From positions 2,294,001-2,358,000 of the forward strand of contig NZ_LT629766.1 in assembly GCF_900105315.1 (NCBI RefSeq): DNA of 64,000 bases, in the 5' to 3' direction. This stretch comes from Brevibacterium siliguriense. GTDB taxonomy: Bacteria > Actinomycetota > Actinomycetes > Actinomycetales > Brevibacteriaceae. A program made the translations under genes and the position numbers. A model generated the notes under the pieces. The model made no database searches and was not told the DNA's origin. It worked only from the letters and a program-made list of their open reading frames with translations. This document shows positions 25,067 to 50,757 of the stretch, in pieces; position 1 is the first letter of the stretch, and each line of letters starts with the position of its first letter.

Positions 25067-26449
25067 GTGGCACAGTCCAAGTTGGATGCCGTCATCGCCC
25101 TGGCCAAGCGCAGAGGATTCGTCTTCCAAGCAGGAGAGATCTACGGCGGTTCCCGCTCGGCATGGGACTACGGGCCCTTGGGCGTGGAGCTCAAAGACAA
25201 CATCAAGAGCCAGTGGTGGCAGCAGTTCGTGCGCGGTCGCGAAGACGTCGTCGGCCTCGACTCCTCGATCATCCTGCCCAAGCGCGTCTGGGAGGCCTCC
25301 GGCCACGTCGAGACCTTCGTCGATCCTCTCGTGGAGTGCCTCAACTGCCACAAGCGCCACCGCGAGGACCACCTCGTCGAGGCATATGAGGCGAAGAACA
25401 AGAAGGCCCCGGAGAACGGGATGGCCGATATCGTCTGCCCCGACTGCGGCACCCGTGGTCAGTGGACCGATCCACAGGAGTTCTCCGGTCTGGTCAAGAC
25501 CTTTCTCGGCCCCGTCGATTCCGAAGCCGGACTCCACTACCTGCGCCCGGAGACCGCGCAGGGCATCTTCGTGAACTTCAACAATGTGCTCACCGCCGCC
25601 CGGAAGAAGCCGCCGTTCGGCATCGGCCAGATCGGCAAGGCCTTCCGCAACGAGATCACTCCCGGCAACTTCATCTTCCGCACCCGTGAGTTCGAGCAGA
25701 TGGAGATCGAGTACTTCGTCCACCCGGACGAGGCCGATGACTACTACAAGCAGTGGGCCGAAGACTGCTGGTCCTGGTTCCTCGGCCTCGGCATCTCCGA
25801 GGACAACGTGCGTCGCCTCGACGTTCCCGCAGAGGACCGTGCACACTACTCGGCCGGCACCATCGACATCGAATACCGCTTCGGCTTCCAGGGTTCCGAA
25901 TGGGGCGAGCTGATGGGTGTGGCCAACCGCACCGACTACGACCTCGGCACCCATACGGAGGTCTCGGGAACCAAGCTGCAGTACTTCGATCAGGCCAGCG
26001 GCGACCGCTACACCCCGTACGTCATCGAGCCCTCCTTCGGCCTGACGCGGTCGATGATGGCGTTCCTCGTCGAGGCCTACAGCGAAGACGAGGCTCCGAA
26101 CACGAAGGGCGGTGTCGACAAGCGCGTCGTGCTGGGACTCGACCCGCGCCTGGCCCCGGTCAAGGCTGCGGTGCTGCCGCTGAGCCGCAACGAGAGGCTG
26201 ACACCTGCGGCCAAGGATCTCGCGGCGACGCTGCGCCGACGCTGGAACATCGACTTCGACGATGCCGGTGCCATCGGCCGTCGCTACCGTCGTCAGGACG
26301 AGATCGGCACCCCGCTGTGCATCACCGTCGACTTCGACACCCTCGATGATCAGGCAGTGACGGTCCGCAAGCGTGATGACATGAGCCAGGAACGCGTGAG
26401 CATCGACCAGGTGGAGAACTACCTGGCCGAACACTTAGCCGGAGCCTGA
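25067..26449 (+). CDS. glyS: Glycyl-tRNA synthetase (single-chain, class II)
   Basis: Charges tRNA-Gly. The 460-residue protein is the alpha-2 dimer type of actinobacteria and eukaryotes, not the bacterial alpha/beta type. It opens with the motif [22 protein letters not shown], has zinc-type Cys pairs (CLNCHKRH and CPDCG), class II motif 2 around [24 protein letters not shown] and motif 3 at [14 protein letters not shown], then an anticodon-binding domain. It starts at GTG with AAGGAG upstream. A 58-bp palindrome follows its stop. Confidence 0.96.
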
Positions 26450-26457
26450 CCCCAATT

Positions 26458-26515
26458 ACTACCCGACGGCGGCCCAGCAACCTGGCGCCAGGTTGCTGGG
26501 CCGCCGTCGGGTAGT
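26458..26515. repeat. Intergenic palindromic repeat, copy 1 (58 bp, perfect)
   Basis: The left arm (26458-26486, ACTACCCGACGGCGGCCC..) is the exact reverse complement of the right arm (26487-26515). The stem would be 29 bp. It lies eight bases after the glyS stop, where it could end transcription, though no T run follows. It is the best-preserved member of a three-copy family, with copies at 28036 and 33701/35273. Confidence 0.95.
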
Positions 26516-26615
26516 TCTGATAACGGTCGGCCGCCTCGGCGAGCACCTGCCGCACATCCTCCCTTGGTCGGCCGCCGATGCATCTCTTCCGTCAGCCATC
26601 CTCTGAAGGACCGCC

Positions 26616-28019
26616 ATGCATATGACGTCCCAACACGAACCGAAGGCCTCGCCGAAGGTTCAGCTGATCATGCTCGCCTGCCTCGTCCCGCTCATCGTGG
26701 TCACGATCGCCGGTCTGTTCGTCCTGTGGCCGTCGGGCCCGGACAAGGAGCTGCCCGGCGGCGGGCCGACGACGAACACGGCTGAGGGCACCACGGATAC
26801 GAAGGTCACCGTCACCGCGGTGGACGCCTCGGACTGCGAGTCGGGGAAGACGGACCCGATGGTCCGCGCCGACTGCACGAAGTACATCGTGGAGGCGGAC
26901 GGGCAGGAAGGCAGCCTGTACGTCACTCCCGATGCGGTCAAGGCCGGTGTCGACGTCGGGGACAGGATCAAGGCCCTCGACTTCACACAGTCTCCGGACC
27001 GCGCGGAGATGGGCACCGACTATGTGTTCATCGATTTCGACCGCAACGTGCCGATGCTGGCCCTGGCGATCATCTACGCGATCGTCGTCCTCCTCGTCGC
27101 CGGTCTGCGGGGACTTCGCGCACTGATCGGACTCGGGTTCGCCGGCGCTGTGCTGTTCGTCTTCATGCTCCCGGCCATGCTCGACGGCAAACCTCCGGTG
27201 CTGGTGGCGATGGTTTCGGCGAGTCTGATCATGGTCATCGCCCTCTACCTAGCGCACGGAATCTCGACGCGGACGTCGACGGCGCTGTTCGGAACAGTGC
27301 TCGGCATCATCATCACGGGCATCCTCGGCGCGTGGATGACGTCCTGGGCGAATCTGGGCATCGCGTATTCGGAGGACGGGTATCTGCTGGTCGATACGAC
27401 CGACCTGGGGATGACCGACATGATCGTGTGCGCAATCCTCATCACCGGGCTCGGAGTGCTCAACGACGTCACGATCACCCAGGCTTCGGCTGTGTGGGAG
27501 TTGGCGGCCGCCGCTCCGGAGATGAAGCCAGGTCAGCTGTTCTCCCGGGCGATGCGCATCGGCCGCGACCATATCGCCTCGACCGTTTATACGATCACCT
27601 TCGCGTATGTGGGCTCGGCGCTGATGACGCTCATCATCGTCTCCGCACACGACCAGCCGCTGTTCGACACGTTCACGCTCGGCGACATGTCGGTGGAGGT
27701 GGTGAGCATCCTCGTGTGTTCGATCGGCCTGGTCATCGCGATTCCGCTGACGACCGGACTCGGCGTCCTTGTCGTCCGCTCCGGCCTTCGCCCACCGAGA
27801 CGGCCCGTCGCTTCCGCAGCTTCGCCCGTTCCGGCCGTGTCCGGTGGAGAGACGACCGAGCGCGCGACCGCCGAGGCGGCTGGAGCCGCGGACGGACACC
27901 CGGAACCCGCACGCGAGGTTCCGGGGAGTCCGGCGGGCTCAAAGGATCCAGTGGGCCCAGCAGGGGAGCGGCCGCCGATGACCCGCCGCGAGGCCCGGGA
28001 ACGTGACAGGAACCGCTGA
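26616..28019 (+). CDS. YibE/F family membrane protein
   Basis: A 467-residue membrane protein of the YibE/F family, whose function is not established. One N-terminal helix is followed by a soluble extracytoplasmic domain (about residues 45-145) and then seven or so helices. The conserved stretch ILITGLGVLNDVTITQASAVWEL and the later YTITFAYVGSALMTLI identify the family. The C-terminal 90 residues are a polar Pro/Arg/Glu-rich tail. The ATG at 26616 has GAAGGA upstream. It lies between two palindromic repeats. Confidence 0.85.
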   Translation: MHMTSQHEPKASPKVQLIMLACLVPLIVVTIAGLFVLWPSGPDKELPGGGPTTNTAEGTTDTKVTVTAVDASDCESGKTDPMVRADCTKYIVEADGQEGSLYVTPDAVKAGVDVGDRIKALDFTQSPDRAEMGTDYVFIDFDRNVPMLALAIIYAIVVLLVAGLRGLRALIGLGFAGAVLFVFMLPAMLDGKPPVLVAMVSASLIMVIALYLAHGISTRTSTALFGTVLGIIITGILGAWMTSWANLGIAYSEDGYLLVDTTDLGMTDMIVCAILITGLGVLNDVTITQASAVWELAAAAPEMKPGQLFSRAMRIGRDHIASTVYTITFAYVGSALMTLIIVSAHDQPLFDTFTLGDMSVEVVSILVCSIGLVIAIPLTTGLGVLVVRSGLRPPRRPVASAASPVPAVSGGETTERATAEAAGAADGHPEPAREVPGSPAGSKDPVGPAGERPPMTRREARERDRNR

Positions 28020-28035
28020 ACTTCACCCCAGAACC

Positions 28036-28087
28036 ACCTGACGGCGGCTCAGCAACCTCGCGCGAGGTTGCTGAGCCGCCGTCAGGT
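28036..28087. repeat. Intergenic palindromic repeat, copy 2 (52 bp, perfect)
   Basis: ACCTGACGGCGGCTCAGC.. (28036-28061) mirrors 28062-28087 exactly. Compared with copy 1, three positions differ in the left arm and each is matched by a compensating change in the right arm, so the stem is kept. It sits in the convergent gap between the YibE/F gene and the aminotransferase. Confidence 0.95.
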
Positions 28088-28101
28088 AGTAATAAGGGAG
28101 G

Positions 28102-29493
28102 TCAGAACATTGTCCAGGCTTCCTGCAGGACGCCGCGGATGATCTGCTCCATCTCGTCGAACTCGTTCTGACCGACGGTCAGCGGAGGCGACAGCTGGAT
28201 GACCGGGTCGCCGCGGTCGTCGGCGCGGCAGTACAGACCGCTTTCGTACATCTTCGCCGACACGAAGTTCTTGAGAATCCGCTCGGACTCCTCCTCGGTG
28301 AATGACTCCTTCGTGTCCTTGTCCTTGACGAGTTCGATTCCGTAGAAAAATCCCTCACCGCGGACGTCTCCGACGATCGGCAGGTCCTTGAGCTTCTCGA
28401 GCGTGAACTTGAACGCCGCAGCGTTCTCGTGCACGTGGTCGTTAAGCTTCTCCTCTTCGAAGACATCGAAGTTCGCCATCGCGGCGGCACAGGCGACGGG
28501 GTGACCGCCGAAGGTGTAGCCGTGGTAGAAGGTCTCATCGCCGCCAGGACCGAAGGGCTCGAAGAGACGATCGGAGGCGATCATCGCACCCAGCGGCGCA
28601 TAGCCGGAGGTGATGCCCTTGGCCGAGGTGATGATGTCGGGAACATATCCGAAGTCGTTGCAGGCGAACATGTCGCCGATGCGACCGTAGGCGCAGATCG
28701 TCTCGTCAGAGACGAGCAGCACATCATATTCGTCGCAGATCTCGCGGACTCGCTCGAAGTATCCGGGAGGCGGCGGGAAGCAGCCGCCCGAGTTCTGCAC
28801 GGGTTCGAGGAAGACCGCGGCGACGGAGTCAGCGCCCTCGAACTCGATGGCCTCACCGATGCGGTCGGCGGCCCAGCGGCCGAAGGCCTTCTCGTCATGT
28901 GCGAGATGCTCCGGTGCCCGGTAGAAGTTCGTGTTCGGCACCTTGTGAGCGCCGGGGACCAGGGGAGCGAACTGCTCACGCAGCCCCGGCAGCGAGGTCA
29001 CCGACAGCGCACCGTGCGGGGTGCCGTGGTAGGCGGTGGCGCGGGAGATGATCTTGTGCTTGCCGGGCTTGCCGACGAGCTTGAAGTAGTTCTTCGCCAG
29101 CTTCATCGCCGATTCGACGGAATCGCCGCCGCCGGAGGTGAGGAAGACCCGGTTGAGATCGCCCGGCGCATAGCTGGCCAGACGCTCCGAGACCTCGATC
29201 GCCTGCGGATGGGCATACGACCACAGCGGCATGAACGGCAGCTTCATAGTCTGGTCGTACATCGCCTTGGCGATCTGCTCGCGTCCGTGCCCCACCTGGA
29301 CGGTGAACAGGCCCGCGAGACCGTCAAGGTACTTCTTGCCCTTGTCGTCGAAGATGTGGTGGCCTTCGCCGCGTACGATGACCGGCGCCTCACCACCGTT
29401 GAACAGTGCTTGGTGTGGTGACATGTGCATCCACACGTTGTTGCGGATGGCATCCTGATAAGGAGTGCCGGCCTTGGTGACATTGTCTGTCAT
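28102..29493 (-). CDS. Class III PLP-dependent aminotransferase
   Basis: A 463-residue omega-aminotransferase of the ornithine/GABA/diaminobutyrate superfamily. The cofactor Lys is in ITSAKGITSGYAPLG, with the PLP Asp in LLVSDETICAYGRIGDMF and the phosphate loop TSGGGDSVESAMKLA. The substrate cannot be read with certainty. Its coupling to an Lrp/AsnC regulator (four-base overlap) and the divergent ectoine-hydrolase-like gene make diaminobutyrate a reasonable candidate (role of DoeD), with GABA, putrescine or beta-alanine as alternatives. It ends close to palindrome copy 2. Confidence 0.85.
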   Translation of the reverse strand: MTDNVTKAGTPYQDAIRNNVWMHMSPHQALFNGGEAPVIVRGEGHHIFDDKGKKYLDGLAGLFTVQVGHGREQIAKAMYDQTMKLPFMPLWSYAHPQAIEVSERLASYAPGDLNRVFLTSGGGDSVESAMKLAKNYFKLVGKPGKHKIISRATAYHGTPHGALSVTSLPGLREQFAPLVPGAHKVPNTNFYRAPEHLAHDEKAFGRWAADRIGEAIEFEGADSVAAVFLEPVQNSGGCFPPPPGYFERVREICDEYDVLLVSDETICAYGRIGDMFACNDFGYVPDIITSAKGITSGYAPLGAMIASDRLFEPFGPGGDETFYHGYTFGGHPVACAAAMANFDVFEEEKLNDHVHENAAAFKFTLEKLKDLPIVGDVRGEGFFYGIELVKDKDTKESFTEEESERILKNFVSAKMYESGLYCRADDRGDPVIQLSPPLTVGQNEFDEMEQIIRGVLQEAWTMF

Positions 29494-29975
29494 CGCGTCC
29501 CCCAGTTGTATTTCTGCTTTTCGAGTGAGAGGTACATGAAGAGCTCCGTATCCACGACGGCATCGATCGAGCGGAGCTCCTCATTGACGAACTCGATCAG
29601 ATGCCGATCCGATTCACACACGATCTCGACCAGGAGGTCGAACGAACCGGCGGTGACTACGAGGTAGTCGATCTCGTCGTAGTCGTGCAGCTTCTCGGCG
29701 ACCGCGGTGATGTCCCCGCGGACCTTCAGCCCCACCATCGCCTGCCGCGCGAATCCCAGGCTCAGCGGGTCGGTCACGGCGACGATCTCCATGACACCCG
29801 AGTCGATGAGCCGCGACACCCGTTGGCGCACGGCGGCCTCGGACAGGCCGACGGACTTGCCGATGGCCGAATAGGATTTCCTTCCGTCGTGCTGCAGTTC
29901 GACGATGATCGCCTTAGATTTCTCGTCGAGATTCCCCAGTCGGGAACCGCTGCCGTTCGGCAGGAGCGGGTCCAT
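29490..29975 (-). CDS. Lrp/AsnC family transcriptional regulator
   Basis: A 161-residue regulator with an N-terminal helix-turn-helix (KAIIVELQHDGRKSYSAIGKSVGLSEAAVRQRVSRL) and a C-terminal RAM ligand-binding domain (DYLVVTAGSFDLLVEIVCES). Such proteins sense amino acids and control adjacent genes. Its stop overlaps the aminotransferase start by four bases, so it leads that operon and probably controls it and the divergent hydrolase. DoeX of ectoine catabolism belongs to this family, which fits but does not prove the context. Confidence 0.92.
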   Translation of the reverse strand: MDPLLPNGSGSRLGNLDEKSKAIIVELQHDGRKSYSAIGKSVGLSEAAVRQRVSRLIDSGVMEIVAVTDPLSLGFARQAMVGLKVRGDITAVAEKLHDYDEIDYLVVTAGSFDLLVEIVCESDRHLIEFVNEELRSIDAVVDTELFMYLSLEKQKYNWGTR

Positions 29976-30049
29976 TCTTCACCTCCGTGATGTGCGCCTC
30001 AGATCAATCTATCACCGATTCTGCTGAAATGCGCTGTTTGGTATGCGAA

Positions 30050-30065
30050 TTCAGTCGAAACTGAA
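30050..30065. promoter_or_regulatory. Candidate Lrp/AsnC operator
   Basis: TTCAGTCGAAACTGAA is a perfect inverted repeat (6-base arms, 4-base spacer), flanked by further partial symmetry (GAAT / ATTC). It lies 75 bases before the regulator's start, in an unusually AT-rich spot. Confidence 0.5.
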
Positions 30066-30250
30066 ATTCTTTGGTTCTGGATTCGTCAGAAATCGCCGAG
30101 GCGACCGACGAGTATCCGTGTCCACGTTGCGCTCGCGCGGGCGTCCGGATCCGCTGTTCCAGGACCGCCTGAAACTCCGCTTCGCAATCCCGCAGATCCC
30201 CGCCGCCGCACCGAACGGAGGGCTGCCGACAACACGCGCGTCGACAGTGA

Positions 30251-30280
30251 TTGACAGTGTGTGAGCAGGGTCACCACACT
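30251..30280 (+). promoter_or_regulatory. Promoter of the ectoine-hydrolase-like gene
   Basis: A consensus TTGACA (30251-30256) and CACACT (30275-30280) are 18 bases apart, and the ATG follows six bases later. The mRNA would start at or next to the A of the ATG, that is leaderless; no ribosome site precedes the ATG. Confidence 0.55.
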
Positions 30281-30286
30281 GGGATC

Positions 30287-31615
30287 ATGAATGAGGGTGA
30301 GCTGTTCTACGGCGGCGAAGATAATCGCCCGGATGTGTACGGGATGCGTCCCGGAGCCGAGCAGGGGCAGGCCGGCAAAGAGGTCAAGGCACGCCCGCAG
30401 CCGGTTCCCGGTGGGGTCGATACGATCGGCGCGAACGAACTGTCGTTCAGTGCCGAGGAATATCTCGGGCGCATCGCCTCGGTGCGCAATCGCATGGTCG
30501 ACCAGGGTCTGGCCGCGCTCATCGTCACCGATCCGGCGAACATCTACTACCTCACCGGATACAACGCCTGGTCCTTCTACACCCCGCAGCTGCTGTTCGT
30601 GCCCTCGTCTGGACCGATGACCCTGTTCATGCGCGATATGGACGCCCGCGGAGCCTCGCACACCTCGTGGCTGCCGCCCGAGGACATCGTCGGCTATCCC
30701 GAACGCTATGTGCAGCGTCCCCATATCCACCCTTTCGATTGGGTCGCCTTCGCCCTGCGCCAACGGTGGGAGGTCGCCCGAGCCTCGACCATGCCGGTCG
30801 GCGTCGAGATGGACTCACACTTCTTCTCCCCGCGGGGCTTCCGCGCGCTTGTCAACGGAGTGCCCGAATGGCGCCTCGTCGACTGCTTCGAACTTGTCAA
30901 TTGGATTCGCGCGGTCAAATCCCCGGCGGAGATCGAGCTCATGCGCAAGGCTTCGAAAGTGACCACCGCTGCCATGGACGCGGCGCTGGGCACGATCGGC
31001 GTCGGAGTCGGCCAGAACGAAGTGGCCGCCGCGATCTCCGAGGCCCAGACCAGAGGCGGCGACGGAGTCTGGGGCGACTACCCGGCGATCGTGCCGCTCA
31101 TGCCCACCGGCGAAAGCGCGGACACTCCGCACCTGAGCTGGACAGACCGAAAGTTCGAACGCGACGAATCGGTGAGCATCGAACTCGCCGGAGTCCACCG
31201 CCGTTACCACGTCCCGCTGGCACGCACAGCGGTGACCGGGCGACCGAAGCAGGAACTCGTGCGCCTCGAGGGAGTCGTCGCCGAGGCGCTGTCCGCAGTC
31301 CTCGACGTCGCCGCACCCGAGGTGCCCACTGCGGAACTAGCCCGCACCTGGAATCGTGTGCTCGCATTGTCGGGACTCGAGAAGCCCAGCCGCCTGGGCT
31401 ACTCGATCGGCATCGGATATCCGCCGGATTGGGGTGAGCGGACGATCTCGATCCGTACCGAGGACGACCAGATCCTCGAGGCGGGAATGACGTTCCACCT
31501 CATCGGCGGAATGTGGATGAACGGCTACGGAATCGAACTGTCCGAACCGGTGCTCATCACCGACACCGGCTGCGAACCGTTCACGAACTTCCCCCGCGAG
31601 ATCATCCGCGTCTGA
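30287..31615 (+). CDS. doeA: Ectoine hydrolase-like M24 (creatinase-fold) protein
   Basis: A 442-residue pita-bread hydrolase. It matches the ectoine hydrolase DoeA/EutD throughout by block order: YYLTGYNAWSFYTPQ, DIVGYPERYVQ, VGVEMDSHFFS, NWIRAVKSPAEIELMRKA, WGDYPAIVPLMPTGESADTPH, GYSIGIGYPPDWGERTIS and GMTFHLIGGMW. DoeA opens the ectoine ring to acetyl-diaminobutyrate. A 45-residue N-terminal extension rich in Gly precedes the conserved part. The deacetylase DoeB is not in the window, so complete ectoine use cannot be claimed. A general Xaa-Pro peptidase is the alternative. Confidence 0.75.
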   Translation: MNEGELFYGGEDNRPDVYGMRPGAEQGQAGKEVKARPQPVPGGVDTIGANELSFSAEEYLGRIASVRNRMVDQGLAALIVTDPANIYYLTGYNAWSFYTPQLLFVPSSGPMTLFMRDMDARGASHTSWLPPEDIVGYPERYVQRPHIHPFDWVAFALRQRWEVARASTMPVGVEMDSHFFSPRGFRALVNGVPEWRLVDCFELVNWIRAVKSPAEIELMRKASKVTTAAMDAALGTIGVGVGQNEVAAAISEAQTRGGDGVWGDYPAIVPLMPTGESADTPHLSWTDRKFERDESVSIELAGVHRRYHVPLARTAVTGRPKQELVRLEGVVAEALSAVLDVAAPEVPTAELARTWNRVLALSGLEKPSRLGYSIGIGYPPDWGERTISIRTEDDQILEAGMTFHLIGGMWMNGYGIELSEPVLITDTGCEPFTNFPREIIRV

Positions 31616-31684
31616 GACTCGTACCGTCTGCGGTCATGCGAAGCCGGCCTGCATCCCCGACCTGAGCCGCGTATCGAGCGCCCC

Positions 31685-33073
31685 TCAGGCGAAGAACTGG
31701 ACCCACAGTCCGACGGCCAGGGCGTTGATCCCGGCCACCGTGAGCGCGCGCCCCTGCACCCAGGAGATGTCCCGCGCCGAGGCGCCCACCGACGAATCCG
31801 CGATCTGCACGGCCATGGCCACCCGCGGGGGAGCGGCGAGAGCGGCCAGTGAGCCGGCCGCGTTTCCTGCCGCGACCACCGGCAGCGCCGAGACATGCGA
31901 CGACGCAGCGACCGCGGTCAGGGTGCCGGTGAACATCGAGTTCGCCCCCGTGTTCGACCCTGTCAGCACCGCCCCGATGGAATTCAGCCACGGAGTGAGC
32001 AGAACGAGCCCGGCCGGCAGCAGCCCGCCGATCGCCTCGCTCATCCCCGTCGTCGTCATGATCCAGCCCATGAGCATGAATGCGGCAGTGCCCACCCCGA
32101 TGGGAACCCAGGAGCGCACCGCCGCGACTGAGACGGTGCGCCTGCCCTCGACGGCGACGGCGGCGATGAGGCAGGCGGCGGCCAGCCAGAACGGGGGAGA
32201 GGCGATGATCTGCGTGATCAACGAGGGCACTGCCGAATGCAGAGCCCGCGCCAACAGCAGCCCGATCGTGAGCACCCCATAGGGCAGAACCGCCACGCCG
32301 AGACTGCGGGTGAGCCCCGTGGTCCGTTTGCCGATCATGAACAGCGCACCGACAACGAGGATGACGATCAGCGATCCGATGATCCCCGACGGCGCCATGC
32401 CGATGACATAGCTGGAAGCGAGGATCCCCACCCACATGAGCGCACCGGCCCCGATGATCCCCAGCGCCGAGGCGGGAGTCGGGCGCATGATCGCGACCAC
32501 CGCGATCGCGACGATGATGACCGGGATCGCATTGATCCACGCCGTGGCCAAACCGAGTTCGTCGACATCCGAGCCGGCCAGCGCCGCCGCGACGGTGGTG
32601 CCTGGACCCAAAGCGCCCCATGGAACGGCGATGAGGCCGAGGAGGCCGAGGATCGCCGACTGCCGCAGAGTGCAGCCGAGGTGGCGCAGGATCGGCACCC
32701 CGACGGTGACGCCGATGCCGAAGCCCGTGACGGATTCGGCAAAAGGTACGATCCCGAACACGACGAGCGCGACACCGAGAGGGCGACCCGGCGACAGCGA
32801 TTCGACCCACGAGGAGATCTGCGACATCGACCCGGCGGACTCGAGCAGCCGGGCGAGCAGCATGCCGAAGAGCAGGATGAGCGCGACCTCGAGGATGAGC
32901 GGAAAGTAGTCGATCCCCGAATCCACCAGCACCGAGGCGGGGGTGGGGAAGGCGAAGACGACGAGAACGGCCGCGAGCACGGCTCCGGCCAGGGCCGCGA
33001 CCCACGAGCTCTGCTTGAGCAGGAGCAGGGCGATGGCAATGAGGATCGGTGAGAGAGCCAGCACTGCCGCCAT
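31685..33073 (-). CDS. LctP family L-lactate permease
   Basis: A 462-residue integral membrane protein with 12-14 helices, matching the lactate/glycolate permease family. Conserved stretches include VPFAESVTGFGIGVTVGVPIL, ALGPGTTVAAALAG and the C-terminal LTGSNTGANSMFTGTL. It imports small 2-hydroxy acids with protons. It is divergent from the XRE-cupin regulator over 61 bases and is likely its target. The actual substrate here is not proven. It converges on the ectoine-hydrolase-like gene. Confidence 0.88.
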   Translation of the reverse strand: MAAVLALSPILIAIALLLLKQSSWVAALAGAVLAAVLVVFAFPTPASVLVDSGIDYFPLILEVALILLFGMLLARLLESAGSMSQISSWVESLSPGRPLGVALVVFGIVPFAESVTGFGIGVTVGVPILRHLGCTLRQSAILGLLGLIAVPWGALGPGTTVAAALAGSDVDELGLATAWINAIPVIIVAIAVVAIMRPTPASALGIIGAGALMWVGILASSYVIGMAPSGIIGSLIVILVVGALFMIGKRTTGLTRSLGVAVLPYGVLTIGLLLARALHSAVPSLITQIIASPPFWLAAACLIAAVAVEGRRTVSVAAVRSWVPIGVGTAAFMLMGWIMTTTGMSEAIGGLLPAGLVLLTPWLNSIGAVLTGSNTGANSMFTGTLTAVAASSHVSALPVVAAGNAAGSLAALAAPPRVAMAVQIADSSVGASARDISWVQGRALTVAGINALAVGLWVQFFA

Positions 33074-33122
33074 GGAGTCAAGTTTCCTTTGTGAGAGATG
33101 ATTCTACGATCCAAGAATAGAT

Positions 33123-33128
33123 TATGAT
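33123..33128 (+). promoter_or_regulatory. Leaderless -10 box of the XRE-cupin gene
   Basis: TATGAT lies six bases before the ATG at 33135. An inverted repeat ATTCT/AGAAT (33101-33105, 33114-33118) just upstream could be the operator shared with the divergent permease. Confidence 0.5.
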
Positions 33129-33134
33129 GCTCCA

Positions 33135-33683
33135 ATGGTGAAAGAAGAGGATCTCGGCGCACGTGTCTTCGGTGCCCGCATCAGAGCACGGCGCAAATTC
33201 AACAATCTCACCCTCAACGAGCTCGCGGTCCGGGCAGGACTGTCCCGCGCCGCTCTGTCGAAGATTGAACGAGGCGAGCAGGACACATCGGTCTCGAACG
33301 CCATGGGGCTCTCCCGCGCCCTCGGCGTCGACGTCGGCGAACTGCTGGCCGCCCCGGAAGTCGCCATCACCCGCAGTGAGGCGATCCCCGCGGCCTCAAC
33401 TTTCGGGAAAGGAGTCTGGCGCCGGGACCTGCCGTCGGCGATCGAGAACATGGACGTCGTCCACTACCGCCTCGACCCGCGCAGCGAGACCTCCGCTTTC
33501 GCTGCCCACCGCAGCGGATCGCGTGAGAGCTTCTTCGTCCTCAAAGGCAGCATCGAGATCGTCACCATCGACCGCCGCACCACTCTGCACTCCGGCGACT
33601 GTGCCCAAGCTCCTGGCGACGTTCCGCACCAATTGGCCAACCCCCACGATGAGCCCGCCGAACTCATGCTTATCATCGTCTGA
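33135..33683 (+). CDS. XRE family regulator with C-terminal cupin domain
   Basis: A 182-residue regulator: helix-turn-helix at about residues 10-65 (LNELAVRAGLSRAALSKIERGEQDTSV) and a cupin sensor at about 110-180 (SRESFFVLKGSIEIVTIDRRTTLHSGDCAQAPGDVPHQLANP). This architecture controls transport or catabolism of small metabolites bound in the cupin. The divergent permease is the obvious target. There is no ribosome site, consistent with a leaderless mRNA. Palindrome copy 3 follows its stop. Confidence 0.9.
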   Translation: MVKEEDLGARVFGARIRARRKFNNLTLNELAVRAGLSRAALSKIERGEQDTSVSNAMGLSRALGVDVGELLAAPEVAITRSEAIPAASTFGKGVWRRDLPSAIENMDVVHYRLDPRSETSAFAAHRSGSRESFFVLKGSIEIVTIDRRTTLHSGDCAQAPGDVPHQLANPHDEPAELMLIIV

Positions 33684-33700
33684 CCCTGCCGGACCCCTTC

Positions 33701-33733
33701 TTACTACCTGACGGCGGCCCAGCAACCTCGCGC
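33701..33733. repeat. Palindromic repeat copy 3, left half
   Basis: TTACTACCTGACGGCGGCCC.. matches the left arm of copies 1 and 2 and ends with the CGC that is duplicated on the other side of the insertion sequence. Its partner is 35273-35304. Confidence 0.92.
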
Positions 33734-33793
33734 TGGAGTGGTCCCCGAAAGTTGGACTGTGATCAACACAAACCAACTTGAAGGGACTACTCC

Positions 33794-34363
33794 ATGCGCA
33801 AGGACTGTCTGATCACCAACGTCCAAGCCCGTGCCGCGATCGAACTGTTCGACCACGGCTACGGATACGCTGCGACAGCCACGAAGCTCGACGTCCACAA
33901 ACCCACACTCAAACTCCTCCACGACCGGTGGTTAGTGCGTGGAACAATATCGGTCATGGAACCCCACCAGCCCCGGCGCATACCAGCAGAGCAGAAGATC
34001 GCGACCGCGAAGCGATACCTCGACGGTGAACACAAAGTCGAACTCGCCAAGGAACTCGGCCTGGCATCATCGCGACCGATCCTCGACTGGGTCAAGGAAT
34101 ACCGAGACAAGGGCGAGGACGCTTTCACCCCACGCAAAGCATCGGGGAAGGGCAAAACAGCTCGCATGCGCGCGATCGATCACGGGCAGGACCCGGATGC
34201 CGACCCGGCACCGTCGAAGCCGGATGTGATGGCGAAGAAGACTCGGGTCGAGGACATCAGCCTGGCCGAGTACCGGCAGTTACAAGACCGGCTGCTGCGG
34301 GCGGAAGCGGAGAACGCGTACTTAAAAAAACTGAAGGCCTTGAGGCAGAACGGGCAGCTGTAA
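33794..34363 (+). CDS. IS150-group OrfA, DNA-binding protein
   Basis: A 189-residue protein with two helix-turn-helix segments (AAIELFDHGYGYAATATKLDVHKPTLKLL and KRYLDGEHKVELAKELGLASSRPILDWVKEY) and a C-terminal leucine-zipper-like helix (AEYRQLQDRLLRAEAENAYLKKLKAL). It binds the IS ends and is also the N-terminal part of the OrfAB transposase made by frameshifting. The slippery A7 (34324-34330) lies near its end. Confidence 0.93.
   Translation: MRKDCLITNVQARAAIELFDHGYGYAATATKLDVHKPTLKLLHDRWLVRGTISVMEPHQPRRIPAEQKIATAKRYLDGEHKVELAKELGLASSRPILDWVKEYRDKGEDAFTPRKASGKGKTARMRAIDHGQDPDADPAPSKPDVMAKKTRVEDISLAEYRQLQDRLLRAEAENAYLKKLKALRQNGQL
34324..34330 (+). promoter_or_regulatory. Programmed -1 frameshift site (A7)
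   Basis: In the OrfA frame the run reads TTA AAA AAA CTG, an A-AAA-AAA slippery heptamer. Slipping back by one base joins OrfA to OrfB in frame (continuing KKTEGLEAERAAVKARI..) with no stop. Confidence 0.85.
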
Positions 34364-34428
34364 AAGCACGCATTGTTGCCAGTCTCAAGGCGGACTACCC
34401 ACTGTCACTGCTGCTGAGCATTGCGGGG

Positions 34429-35238
34429 TTGGCGCGGTCGACGTTTTTCTATCACCAGAAACGCTTCGGTCAGAGACCTGACCCGTATGTGCAGGTGAGG
34501 GCCCGGATCCGGGAGATCTTCACCGACAGCAACGAACGCTACGGGCACCGCAAGATTATGACTGTCTTGGTCAAAGAGGGCCTGTCGATTGCGAAGAAGA
34601 CCGTGCTGCGGTTGATGCAGGACATGGGGATCAAGACCAAGGTGCGCCGGAAGCGGTACAACTCCCACCGCGGCACGGTCGGCCGTGTGGCTGGCAATGT
34701 CCTCAACCGGGACTTCACTGCTGAGGAACCGAATGAGAAATGGGTCTCTGACGTCACGGAATTCGCTGTGGCGGATCAGAAACTGTATCTGTCACCGGTC
34801 ATTGATCTCTTCGATACCAGTGTGGTGTCGTACTCGATGTCGACGTCACCGAACACGGCGTTGACGAACGAGTCACTGATCAGGGCATGCCAGGGGCTTC
34901 GGCCGGGTCAGGCACCGTTGGTGCACACGGACCAGGGGTTTCAGTACCAGCACGTGTCGTGGGCGGCGATCTTGGCCGAGTATGGTGCACGCCCGTCGAT
35001 GTCGCGGAAGGGAAATTGTTGGGATAACGCGGTCGCGGAGAACTTCTTCGGGCAATTGAAGTCTGAAATGTTCTATCTGCAGAAGTTCGACACTGTCGAG
35101 GACCTCAAGACCGCGATCGATGAGTACATTCACTGGTATAACTTTGAGAGGATCTCGACACGACTTGGCGGTCTTGCTCCGATGGAGTATCGGACCAAGA
35201 CCGCCAATGCCACAGAGGCCGTAACCGCTCTATGCTGA
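34429..35238 (+). CDS. IS150-group OrfB, DDE integrase domain of the transposase
   Basis: The 269-residue listed frame is the catalytic half; by -1 frameshifting it is continuous with OrfA from 34324. The DDE triad is Asp in WVSDVTEF, Asp in LVHTDQGFQYQ and Glu in NAVAENFFGQLKSEMFY. The motif SMSRKGNCWDNAV is typical of IS150. The frame is complete and ends 34 bases before the right end of the element. Confidence 0.95.
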   Translation: MARSTFFYHQKRFGQRPDPYVQVRARIREIFTDSNERYGHRKIMTVLVKEGLSIAKKTVLRLMQDMGIKTKVRRKRYNSHRGTVGRVAGNVLNRDFTAEEPNEKWVSDVTEFAVADQKLYLSPVIDLFDTSVVSYSMSTSPNTALTNESLIRACQGLRPGQAPLVHTDQGFQYQHVSWAAILAEYGARPSMSRKGNCWDNAVAENFFGQLKSEMFYLQKFDTVEDLKTAIDEYIHWYNFERISTRLGGLAPMEYRTKTANATEAVTALC

Positions 35239-35272
35239 CCCCACAGCAGTCCAACTATTGGGGACCACTCCA

Positions 35273-35304
35273 CGCCAGGTTGCTCAGCCGCCGTCAGGTA
35301 GTAA
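35273..35304. repeat. Palindromic repeat copy 3, right half
   Basis: CGC then CAGGTTGCTCAGCCGCCG..TAGTAA completes the palindrome begun at 33701. With one CGC removed the original site would be 62 bp. Two mismatches between the arms distinguish this copy from the two perfect ones. Confidence 0.92.
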
Positions 35305-35343
35305 GGAGGGGTGGTCTTGACCGGACGAGCCGCTTCGGCGACC

Positions 35344-35385
35344 ATGGATATGTTCCATTTCCGTTCAAGGACGTCTCAGCTGTGA
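35344..35385 (+). other. Possible upstream ORF before the ABC-F gene
   Basis: ATG at 35344 reads a 13-residue frame (MDMFHFRSRTSQL) ending at 35385, followed by a hairpin TGCGGGT/ACCCGCA (35408-35414, 35422-35428) and the ABC-F start. Antibiotic-resistance ABC-F genes are often controlled by such leaders. No ribosome site precedes the ATG, so this is weak. Confidence 0.2.
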
Positions 35386-35459
35386 AGTGAATCCTCGTGC
35401 CGTGACTTGCGGGTGCCGCGGACCCGCAGCGCTTCTGCGTACACGAAATGAGGACCCTC

Positions 35460-37145
35460 ATGCCTGCAGCAATCATTGTGTCCGAACTGGACTACCGCCT
35501 CGGCGACGATACCGAGATCTTCTCCCGACTCACCGCCACCATCCCCGCTGACCTCGTCGGACTGGTCGGCGACAACGGGATCGGGAAATCCACCTTTGCT
35601 CGAATACTCGCCGGTCGGCTGCGCGCCTCGGCGGGAACCGTCACGGGTGCTGACGGTGCGGTCTACATCGACCAGCTGCTGCCGCACTCGACGCAGCGAG
35701 TCGACTCCGCACTGGATATCGCCTCCGTTCGCGTGGCTCTGCACCGCGCCCTGAACGGAGATGCGACCGACTCCGATTTCGAGCTCATCGGCGACGACTG
35801 GGACATCGAAGAGCGGGCTCTGGCGGCGCTGGCCGATCTCGGCCTGCACCTGAGCCCGAGCGACCTCGGCCGGAGCCTGAGCAGCTTCTCCGGCGGACAG
35901 GGCACTCGCATCGGACTGGCCCGAGCGGCACTGGTCCGCGACTCCTGGCTGATCCTCGATGAGCCGAGCAACAATCTCGACGAGGACGGTAGGGGTCTGC
36001 TGGCGACCCTGCTCACGGAACGGCGGGGGCCCACCCTCGTCATCTCCCACGATCGCAACCTGCTGACGCATATGTCCTCGATCATCGAGATGACCGACCG
36101 GCTGCGTGTCTACGGCGGGAACTTCGACGACTACGAAACCATGGTCGCCGCCGAAGAGGAGGCCAAACAGCAGAAGGTCACCGACGCGAAGAAGACCCAC
36201 CAGATCGAGAAGCGCCAGCGGATCGAACTGGAGACGAAACTCGCACGAGCCGACCGGAAAGCCAAGAAGGACAAGGAGAACAAGCGTCGACCGAAGATCG
36301 TGATGAACGGGCTGAAGAACTTCGCCGAGAGGTCAGCGGCCAAACGACGCGGCGACAAAGCCGCCGACGAAGCGGCGGCCTGGGACGAACTCAACTCAGC
36401 CAAGGACGCGCTGCGTCGGACGTCGAGCGTCCGCCTCGACCTGCCGGATACCCACGTCCATGCGACGAAACGGGTCCTCGGGATCTCCACGGCAGCCTCG
36501 GCGAGGCCCGAGCGGCCCAAGACGATCGTCGGACCGGAAAGGATCCGGCTGACCGGTCCGAACGGGGCAGGGAAGTCGACCCTGCTGGCAGCGATCCTGG
36601 CAGCTGCCAACGGCCAGGACGGACAGGGCGAAGGCACGGGCGACGCAGCCGGGGGACACGCCGGGGTCGAACCCGGACCGCCGATCGCCGACCTCTTCGG
36701 CGACCTCGACATCACCGTCGCCGCTCCGACGGCTCACCTCGACCAGCAGTACCGGCTGCCGGGAGAGCTGACTGTGATGGAAGCGGTGCGATCGGGCAAC
36801 CCGCAGCTCGACCCGCATCGCGTCCACGAAATACTCGCGGCCATGGGGCTGCGCGCCGGACGCACCGACCAGCTCTGTCAGACCCTGTCCGGAGGGGAAC
36901 GATTCCGTGTCGCCCTGGCTGCAGGACTCCTCCAGGACCCGGCCCCGCAGCTGCTCATCCTCGACGAGCCGGGCAACAATCTCGACCTGTCATCGCTCGA
37001 AGCACTGGTGACCGCGCTCGAAGGATTCGGCGGTGCCATGGTGATCGTCACCCACGACGACCGGCTCGCCGCCGAACTTTCCGTCGACACCGAATGGGAC
37101 GTGCGGGAATTTCTGCGCACCGAATCAGTTGAGGTGAACAGGTGA
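35460..37145 (+). CDS. ABC-F family ATPase (two ABC domains, no membrane part)
   Basis: A 561-residue soluble protein acting on the ribosome, either as a translation factor or in antibiotic protection. ABC1 has GDNGIGKSTFARILAG, SSFSGGQGTRIGLARA and LLDEPSNNLD-type box (WLILDEPSNNLDEDG); a long basic coiled-coil linker (about residues 225-320) follows; ABC2 has TGPNGAGKSTLLAAIL, LSGGERFRVALAAG and LLILDEPGNNLDL. The ATG at 35460 has TGAGGACC upstream and is preferred to 35448. Sequence alone does not show which antibiotic, if any. Confidence 0.9.
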   Translation: MPAAIIVSELDYRLGDDTEIFSRLTATIPADLVGLVGDNGIGKSTFARILAGRLRASAGTVTGADGAVYIDQLLPHSTQRVDSALDIASVRVALHRALNGDATDSDFELIGDDWDIEERALAALADLGLHLSPSDLGRSLSSFSGGQGTRIGLARAALVRDSWLILDEPSNNLDEDGRGLLATLLTERRGPTLVISHDRNLLTHMSSIIEMTDRLRVYGGNFDDYETMVAAEEEAKQQKVTDAKKTHQIEKRQRIELETKLARADRKAKKDKENKRRPKIVMNGLKNFAERSAAKRRGDKAADEAAAWDELNSAKDALRRTSSVRLDLPDTHVHATKRVLGISTAASARPERPKTIVGPERIRLTGPNGAGKSTLLAAILAAANGQDGQGEGTGDAAGGHAGVEPGPPIADLFGDLDITVAAPTAHLDQQYRLPGELTVMEAVRSGNPQLDPHRVHEILAAMGLRAGRTDQLCQTLSGGERFRVALAAGLLQDPAPQLLILDEPGNNLDLSSLEALVTALEGFGGAMVIVTHDDRLAAELSVDTEWDVREFLRTESVEVNR

Positions 37146-50667: not shown

Positions 50668-50757
50668 GCACGGCCCGGGCCCGGACCGTTCGAGGTCCGG
50701 GCCCGGACCGTTCGAGGTCCGGGCCCGGGCCGTTCGAGGTCCGGGCCCGGGCCGTGC
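50668..50757. repeat. 22-base self-complementary tandem array with outer inverted repeats
   Basis: Units GGGCCCGGACCGTTCGAGGT.. at 50677-50698, 50699-50720 and 50721-50742, the last with one change, then a partial unit to 50759. Each unit contains GGACC/GGTCC or GGGCC arms around GTTCGA. The ends, GCACGGCCCGGGCCC (50668-50682) and GGGCCCGGGCCGTGC (50743-50757), are perfect inverted repeats, so the whole can fold as one or several hairpins. It lies between the acyl-CoA ligase stop and the GST-like start, both minus strand, where it may act as a terminator or processing element. Confidence 0.9.

Follow-up and report, generated by a model that had tools for sequence, protein, structure and literature searches.

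Several insertion sequences (IS) of the IS3 family, namely IS1397, ISKpn1 and ISPsy8, together with elements of the IS110 family, insert specifically into repetitive extragenic palindromic (REP) sequences, according to PMC1525189. All five copies of ISPsy8 in Pseudomonas syringae lie in REPs, at the symmetry axis of the hairpin and flanked by a 3-base-pair (bp) direct repeat. For IS1397 and ISKpn1 of E. coli and Klebsiella, work cited in the same paper suggests that the transposase sets the specificity. Here we describe a comparable arrangement in a 64,000-nucleotide (nt) stretch of the Brevibacterium siliguriense genome (NZ_LT629766.1, positions 2,294,001 to 2,358,000; the window), where an IS3-family element, probably of the IS150 group, splits a palindrome. 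Like IS1397 and ISKpn1, it belongs to the IS3 family and inserts specifically into a repeated intergenic palindrome, although the host phylum and the palindrome are different. With ISPsy8 it shares the family, the OrfA/OrfB organization, insertion at the symmetry axis and the 3-bp repeat, but again not the host or the repeat; both comparisons are by description, not by sequence. Because REP targeting by IS3 elements is already known, the mode of insertion seen here is a known one. We consider it about 85% probable that this is a hairpin-apex-targeting element, whose transposase directs insertion to the apices of inverted repeats at gene 3′ ends.

A duplicated CGC stands on either side of the window IS (33731-33733 and 35273-35275), and both halves of the palindrome are retained, as an earlier sequence-only reading of this stretch had proposed. 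Removal of the IS and one CGC leaves 62 bp, the length given in that reading, and a hand count finds 28 complementary pairs among the 31. Thus, the rebuilt palindrome is near-perfect, not perfect.

That this palindrome family is a preferred landing site, also proposed from the sequence, is supported by the distribution of the element. All eight copies in the B. siliguriense genome lie between arms of the palindrome family. A search of the genome with the IS3 family model, in which all 25 candidates were scored, returned the same eight copies (as OrfA and OrfB rows) and three weak matches, too few for a within-genome control. When 57 genomes of the genus were searched, seven species gave strong matches (79-100% identity, E value 9e-20 or better), all of which were read; at most six candidates per genome were scored, and further copies may exist. 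Every one of the 57 IS ends read in these species abuts a palindrome arm (G000, 16; G053, 11; G043, 8; G014, 6; G036, 6; G041, 6; G026, 4), a count in which one left and one right end from a draft genome may come from a single insertion. Weaker genus matches L046 to L052 were also read (L047-L049 and L052 have no usable ends), and L053-L056 and other weak rows were left out. The flanks were unselected, since the searches used the IS sequence only. Mapping the copies in the genome and its relatives therefore placed every one read in a palindrome, and no strong match at an unrelated site, which would have spoken against the proposal, was encountered.

Placement within the palindrome is equally constant. 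All copies occupy the same position, in 8 of 8 cases in the B. siliguriense genome and at the central GCGC in 17 of 17 genus copies with both ends, which corresponds to the 'type 1' association of REP-targeting IS in PMC1525189. The element ends in TG...CA and is bordered by a 3-bp duplication, GCG or CGC, in 14 of these 17 copies and by the 4-bp GCGC in 3, always at the palindrome centre. The IS copies are near-identical, whereas their arms vary between sites, left and right in concert (GACGGGGGCC in L003 versus GACGGCGGCC in L004). Half-sites number at least 28 per strand in 17 palindrome-rich species of the 57, and at most 16 in the 40 palindrome-poor ones. The IS is present in seven palindrome-rich species and was found in no palindrome-poor one (hypergeometric probability about 7e-5, by hand arithmetic that ignores relatedness); ten palindrome-rich species have no strong match. 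In species G003 the half-sites seemed biased to one strand, but this was a listing artefact: four fetched sites there carry both arms.

The palindrome itself occurs far above chance, as is evident from two intact copies in the window and from 81 forward and 83 reverse half-site matches (up to three mismatches) in the 4.02-Mb genome, compared with 0 and 4 for a reversed control pattern. RNA folding of the two intact copies predicts a stable G+C-rich hairpin (−61 to −69 kcal/mol, z-scores −10 to −12). Stretches fetched around 100 of the 164 half-site matches yielded 53 empty sites, a census of these stretches rather than of the whole genome, with genes called by a simple purpose-written codon-score caller instead of a standard gene finder. 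A predicted gene 3′ end is a neighbor of 51 of the 53, and in 47 it is no more than 20 nt away from the outer edge of the stem. The median distance is 5 nt (n = 51), and at 13 sites it is −1, the stop codon touching the outer TAATTGCTACC-like tail. Predicted gene starts fall within 20 nt of only five empty palindromes; neighboring genes are in tandem at 32 sites, convergent at 19 and divergent at 2. Several stem positions vary on both sides (column 31, C-G in 28 and G-C in 9; column 21, C-G in 32 and T-A in 10). By eye, the stem is followed mostly by GCAATT-, GTAATT- or GTTCTGG-like sequence, with no T run. Judged from these sequence features, the palindrome looks like a 3′-end hairpin and is possibly a terminator; no Rfam family matched at gathering scores over window positions 26000-36000. 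Its outer flanks come in two flavors, judged by eye and uncounted: the gene-proximal flank is mostly (TA)ATTGCTACC or AATTACTACC, and the distal flank mostly AGAACTACC. Such flavors would orient the palindrome relative to the gene that it follows.

Empty counterparts of the window site, which point to a palindrome older than the insertion, exist in other species. The ABC-F locus was compared at 30 loci, one per species and including the window itself (the L242 spacer was unreadable). An uninterrupted palindrome free of the IS lies between the HTH-cupin (helix-turn-helix-cupin) and ABC-F genes in 12 of 28 readable spacers (with imperfect arms in L232), and at L224 its center equals the window halves minus one CGC. 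No palindrome is present in the remaining 16, which include L228 (G041) and L234 (G040) from palindrome-rich species. The palindrome at this locus has thus been gained or lost. The sequence-only reading had held that the IS separates the palindrome from the gene it served; however, with the left arm still only about 18 bp past the stop codon of that gene, it is the palindrome itself that the IS divides. That reading also had the insertion put IS sequence before the ABC-F gene. The 143-bp leader from palindrome to gene is uninterrupted, and a similar leader precedes this gene whether or not a species has the palindrome. An effect of the insertion on ABC-F is not indicated by the sequence.

Relatives of the element in other genera lie mostly between hairpin arms of other sequence, with OrfB identities of 43-59%. 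A contig scan gave 35 relative loci (34-51% identity). Under a strict cut-off, a class search matched 5 of 394 genomes, and four of these (G336, G382, G422 and G318) were new. Both ends were available at 32 loci, comprising 27 of the 35 from the scan and five more; L133, L134, L144, L146 and L153-L156, whose two ends were not identified, were excluded from the flank test. Complementarity between the two flanks of a site averages 12.3, versus 6.3 for swapped flanks, and none of 2,000 permutations reached the observed sum. Scores exceed the control 95th percentile in 24 of 32 relatives and the 99th in 13; of 256 displaced positions, 5 exceed the 95th. A duplication of 3-4 bp is found in 27 of the 32, and 25 have AAA at 10-34 nt from where the IS inserted, versus 75 of 256 displaced positions. 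Complementary flanks are also present in an Arthrobacter plasmid copy (L267, score 14) and in copies from two palindrome-poor species of the genus (L046 and L064, 15 each). At L215, from the class search, the ends are unsure and the flank score is 6. End pairs at L143, L159 and L217, which were kept among the 32, are separated by 2.1-2.9 kb, where about 1.44 kb is expected; extra cargo, one insertion nested in another, or the pairing of ends from two copies could explain this.

Many arms of the relatives resemble intrinsic terminators, for example AAGCCCC...GGGGCTTTTT and AAAAAAACACC...GGTGTTTTTTT. The same terminator was entered in opposite orientations in the pair L130/L132, and likewise in the pair L140/L141. 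Corynebacterium arms have a common C-rich core (about AAGCCCC), and Neobacillus arms are A-rich, with cores ACACC or ACACA.

The behavior of IS150, the E. coli namesake of the group, with about 50% OrfB identity to the window element, is different. Eleven IS150/ISKpn8 copies at nine distinct sites have flank scores of 4-8, none above the 95th percentile, and so lie outside hairpins by the same score. A tree of transposases places the actinobacterial elements in one group (95/89) that excludes IS150; the Neobacillus elements fall outside it. Hairpin use may be old and then lost, or may have been gained twice, and the tree, with its long branches, its partly unresolved inner forks and no sample of other IS3 groups, favors neither. 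As a separate observation, seven of the eleven IS150/ISKpn8 copies lie beside annotated hok genes (among L268, L269, L272, L274 and L276-L279, with L276-L278 being one site), and the flank of an eighth, L269, resembles a hok leader by eye. Association of IS elements with hok loci is familiar.

Some palindromes are split by a second, unrelated element, a 1.4-kb member of the IS110 family (PF01548, PF02371). In the genus, 34 of 35 distinct copies read lie in the palindrome, at its outer edge (15), center (14) or inner arm (5); some search rows were left unread, and several copies were read at one side only. In L190 and L194 the single side read shows only a short outer tail. The sole copy outside the palindrome, in palindrome-poor G005, has a different target, to which its leader segment corresponds. 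One fixed place in the noncoding leader of these elements holds a segment resembling the left target flank. This segment is ACCTCGCGCT in center-type elements and TAATTGCTACT, TAATTACTACT or CAGAACTACT in outer types, whose flanks correspond (outer copies L262 and L264 have a one-base mismatch between leader and flank). Matches are looser in inner-type elements. The segment is a candidate RNA guide that tracks target position, and as a sequence pattern it fits the bridge RNA and seekRNA guides described in PMC11208160 and PMC11187229; the latter also reports natural redirection between relatives. Targeting of REPs by enzymes unrelated to IS3 transposases is described for IS621, ISPa11 and ISPpu9/10 (IS110/IS1111) in PMC1525189 and PMC11187229, whereas the IS110 elements here use three positions in one palindrome, matching their candidate guides.

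How might the IS3-family element find its sites? In the genus, its main target hairpin is the dispersed, almost loopless palindrome just past stop codons, and it inserts into the central GCGC and duplicates 3 bp, sometimes 4. Most clade members in other genera use terminator-like hairpins of different sequence. The transposase, through the helix-turn-helix of OrfA, the catalytic complex or both, presumably recognizes the symmetric hairpin, which would let the element multiply without breaking genes. Occupancy in all copies read, the exact central position, the duplications, the empty sites and the site-specific complementarity of flanks are the observations behind apex targeting. A stronger claim, that what guides this clade of DDE transposases to a target is its hairpin or cruciform structure, with sequence playing little part, we put forward tentatively, as somewhat more doubtful than probable. 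A competing possibility, which we rate as not far short of even, is that the transposase reads palindromic sequence in the ordinary double helix, perhaps as a dimer on two inverted half-sites, and that the hairpin plays no role. All 17 both-ended genus copies are centered around GCGC, with few exceptions in adjacent bases, and the C-rich motif common to Corynebacterium arms fits the same idea, as do the proposal in PMC1525189 that REPs are recognized in the way regulators bind palindromes and the evidence cited there, for IS1397 and ISKpn1, that points to the transposases. However, arms from the same site match better than arms from different sites, so the feature common to the relatives is complementarity more than one motif, and the A-rich Neobacillus arms also count against sequence reading.

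Several observations weigh against structural targeting or limit it. Eight of the 32 relatives (L128, L129, L137, L138, L142, L147, L158 and L211) do not exceed the 95th percentile, and L128 and L147 lack paired arms by eye. Not all 32 loci are independent, since some are near-copies or occupy the same terminator. L050 and L051, from palindrome-poor species of the genus, score only 7 each, and neither Sporosarcina L154 (score 5) nor ISEnfa3 L270 (score 6) lies in a hairpin by this measure. The common Corynebacterium core means that recognition of symmetric sequence could mimic recognition of structure, and the genus palindrome, having no U-tract, is no textbook intrinsic terminator. Insertion could also follow transcription termination, with a paused polymerase, an R-loop or single-stranded DNA exposing the site and hairpins being incidental. 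The closeness of 47 of 53 empty palindromes to a predicted gene 3′ end and the terminator-like arms of the relatives, with A/T tracts near, are compatible with this mechanism, yet we regard it as unlikely, because insertions are at the apex in all 17 copies and not spread over the 3′ region, and because the IS150 copies examined have no such preference. Survivorship, in which the IS inserts widely and only insertions in harmless intergenic hairpins persist, seems very improbable: intergenic 3′ ends are indeed generally safe for insertion, but selection against gene disruption alone cannot explain central placement in every both-ended copy. Finally, an arm flanks every IS end read, as would be expected if the arms were extended IS ends and the empty palindromes were excision scars or small non-autonomous derivatives. 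We rejected this idea, which is hardly credible given that the arms vary between sites in matched fashion while the IS does not. Moreover, the duplications fall within the palindrome, ten palindrome-rich species have no strong IS match, other species have uninterrupted palindromes at the window locus, and an unrelated IS uses two further places in the palindrome.

The architecture of the window element is that of the IS3 family. Two overlapping frames, OrfA and OrfB, are accompanied by a run of seven A residues as a candidate frameshift motif; the run stands at the place where frameshifting is common in IS3 elements. The OrfB frame scores 319.9 bits against NF033516 (transpos_IS3; cut-off 160), which identifies it as an IS3-family DDE transposase. 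Residues D135, D195 and E231 of the aligned frame are invariant in a three-row alignment and have DD(35)E spacing; we take them, from knowledge of the family, to be catalytic. The nearest named elements by score are IS150 and ISKpn8 (50.4% amino acid identity), and an unnamed Arthrobacter element is closer (57.4%), both among the 40 spread matches listed from a capped plasmid search. A megablast-level comparison of the IS itself with the plasmid collection gave no match. Elsewhere in the window, positions 50668-50757 hold tandem repeats of a G+C-rich 22-bp unit (GGTCCGGGCCCGGACCGTTCGA), forming a short array with internal inverted symmetry.

Table 1. Coordinates of the insertion sequence, its target palindrome and associated features (window positions unless stated otherwise).
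Feature	Position	Strand	Basis or remark
Empty palindrome, few bp past the stop codon of a gene ending at 26449	about 26456..26517	.	repeat search, folding
Empty palindrome flanked by convergent genes, which end at 28019 (+) and near 28101 (-)	about 28031..28092	.	repeat search, folding
HTH-cupin regulator, palindrome about 18 bp past its 3′ end	33135..33683	+	open reading frame (ORF) and domain matches
Left arm of target palindrome, ending in CGC	33701..33733	+	sequence reading, repeat pairing
IS3-family (probable IS150-group) insertion sequence, 1,539 bp	33734..35272	+	ends from terminal repeats and 8 near-identical genomic copies
Left terminal inverted repeat (TGGAGTGGTCCCC...)	33734..33759	+	26 nt, 92% complementary to right repeat
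OrfA, helix-turn-helix protein, 189 amino acids	33794..34363	+	matches HTH_28, HTH_23, HTH_Tnp_1
Seven-A run, probable site of a -1 frameshift that links OrfA with OrfB	34324..34330	+	function inferred from IS3 family knowledge
OrfB frame, DDE transposase	34348..35238	+	matches rve, rve_2, HTH_21; NF033516
Right terminal inverted repeat	35247..35272	+	26 nt, mate of left repeat
Right arm of target palindrome, beginning with duplicated CGC	35273..35304	+	sequence reading; uninterrupted palindrome at the locus in 12 IS-free species
ABC-F ATPase gene, downstream; leader 35305-35447 uninterrupted	35448..37145	+	ORF and domain matches, locus comparison
IS110-family element	L114:4396-5803; own genome about 3379895-3381302		plus 5 further own-genome copies

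Relative to described systems, what is new is a hairpin-targeting, mainly actinobacterial clade that uses varied hairpin sequences, and the presence of two unrelated IS families on one repeat. Reports on IS1397 and ISKpn1 concern the palindromic unit (PU)/REP families, whereas the clade described here also uses varied terminator-like hairpins. IS1272 of Staphylococcus likewise is reported to use stem-loop or inverted-repeat targets, but by the title of PMC5678879 it replaces the inverted repeat, whereas the element described here splits the repeat and leaves it in place, with 3-4 bp duplicated. The examined parts of a Brevibacterium IS catalogue (PMC6579920) contain no analysis of target palindromes. 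We found no description of the clade in the literature on IS3/IS150, terminators, stem-loops, palindromes, target selection and IS of the genus, represented mostly by titles and the openings of abstracts.

These findings extend palindrome targeting by IS3-type elements to Gram-positive bacteria. Relatives with about half-identical transposases on different hairpins make the question of structure versus sequence testable with natural variants. Such elements could suit low-damage insertion tools. One palindrome that receives both IS3-type and IS110 elements is a small natural system in which protein-directed and RNA-directed targeting can be compared. If targeting is based on structure, members of the clade could use any 3′-end hairpins of a new host, and in this genus the 3′-end palindrome would thereby have become a landing pad common to an IS3-family element and an RNA-guided IS110 element.
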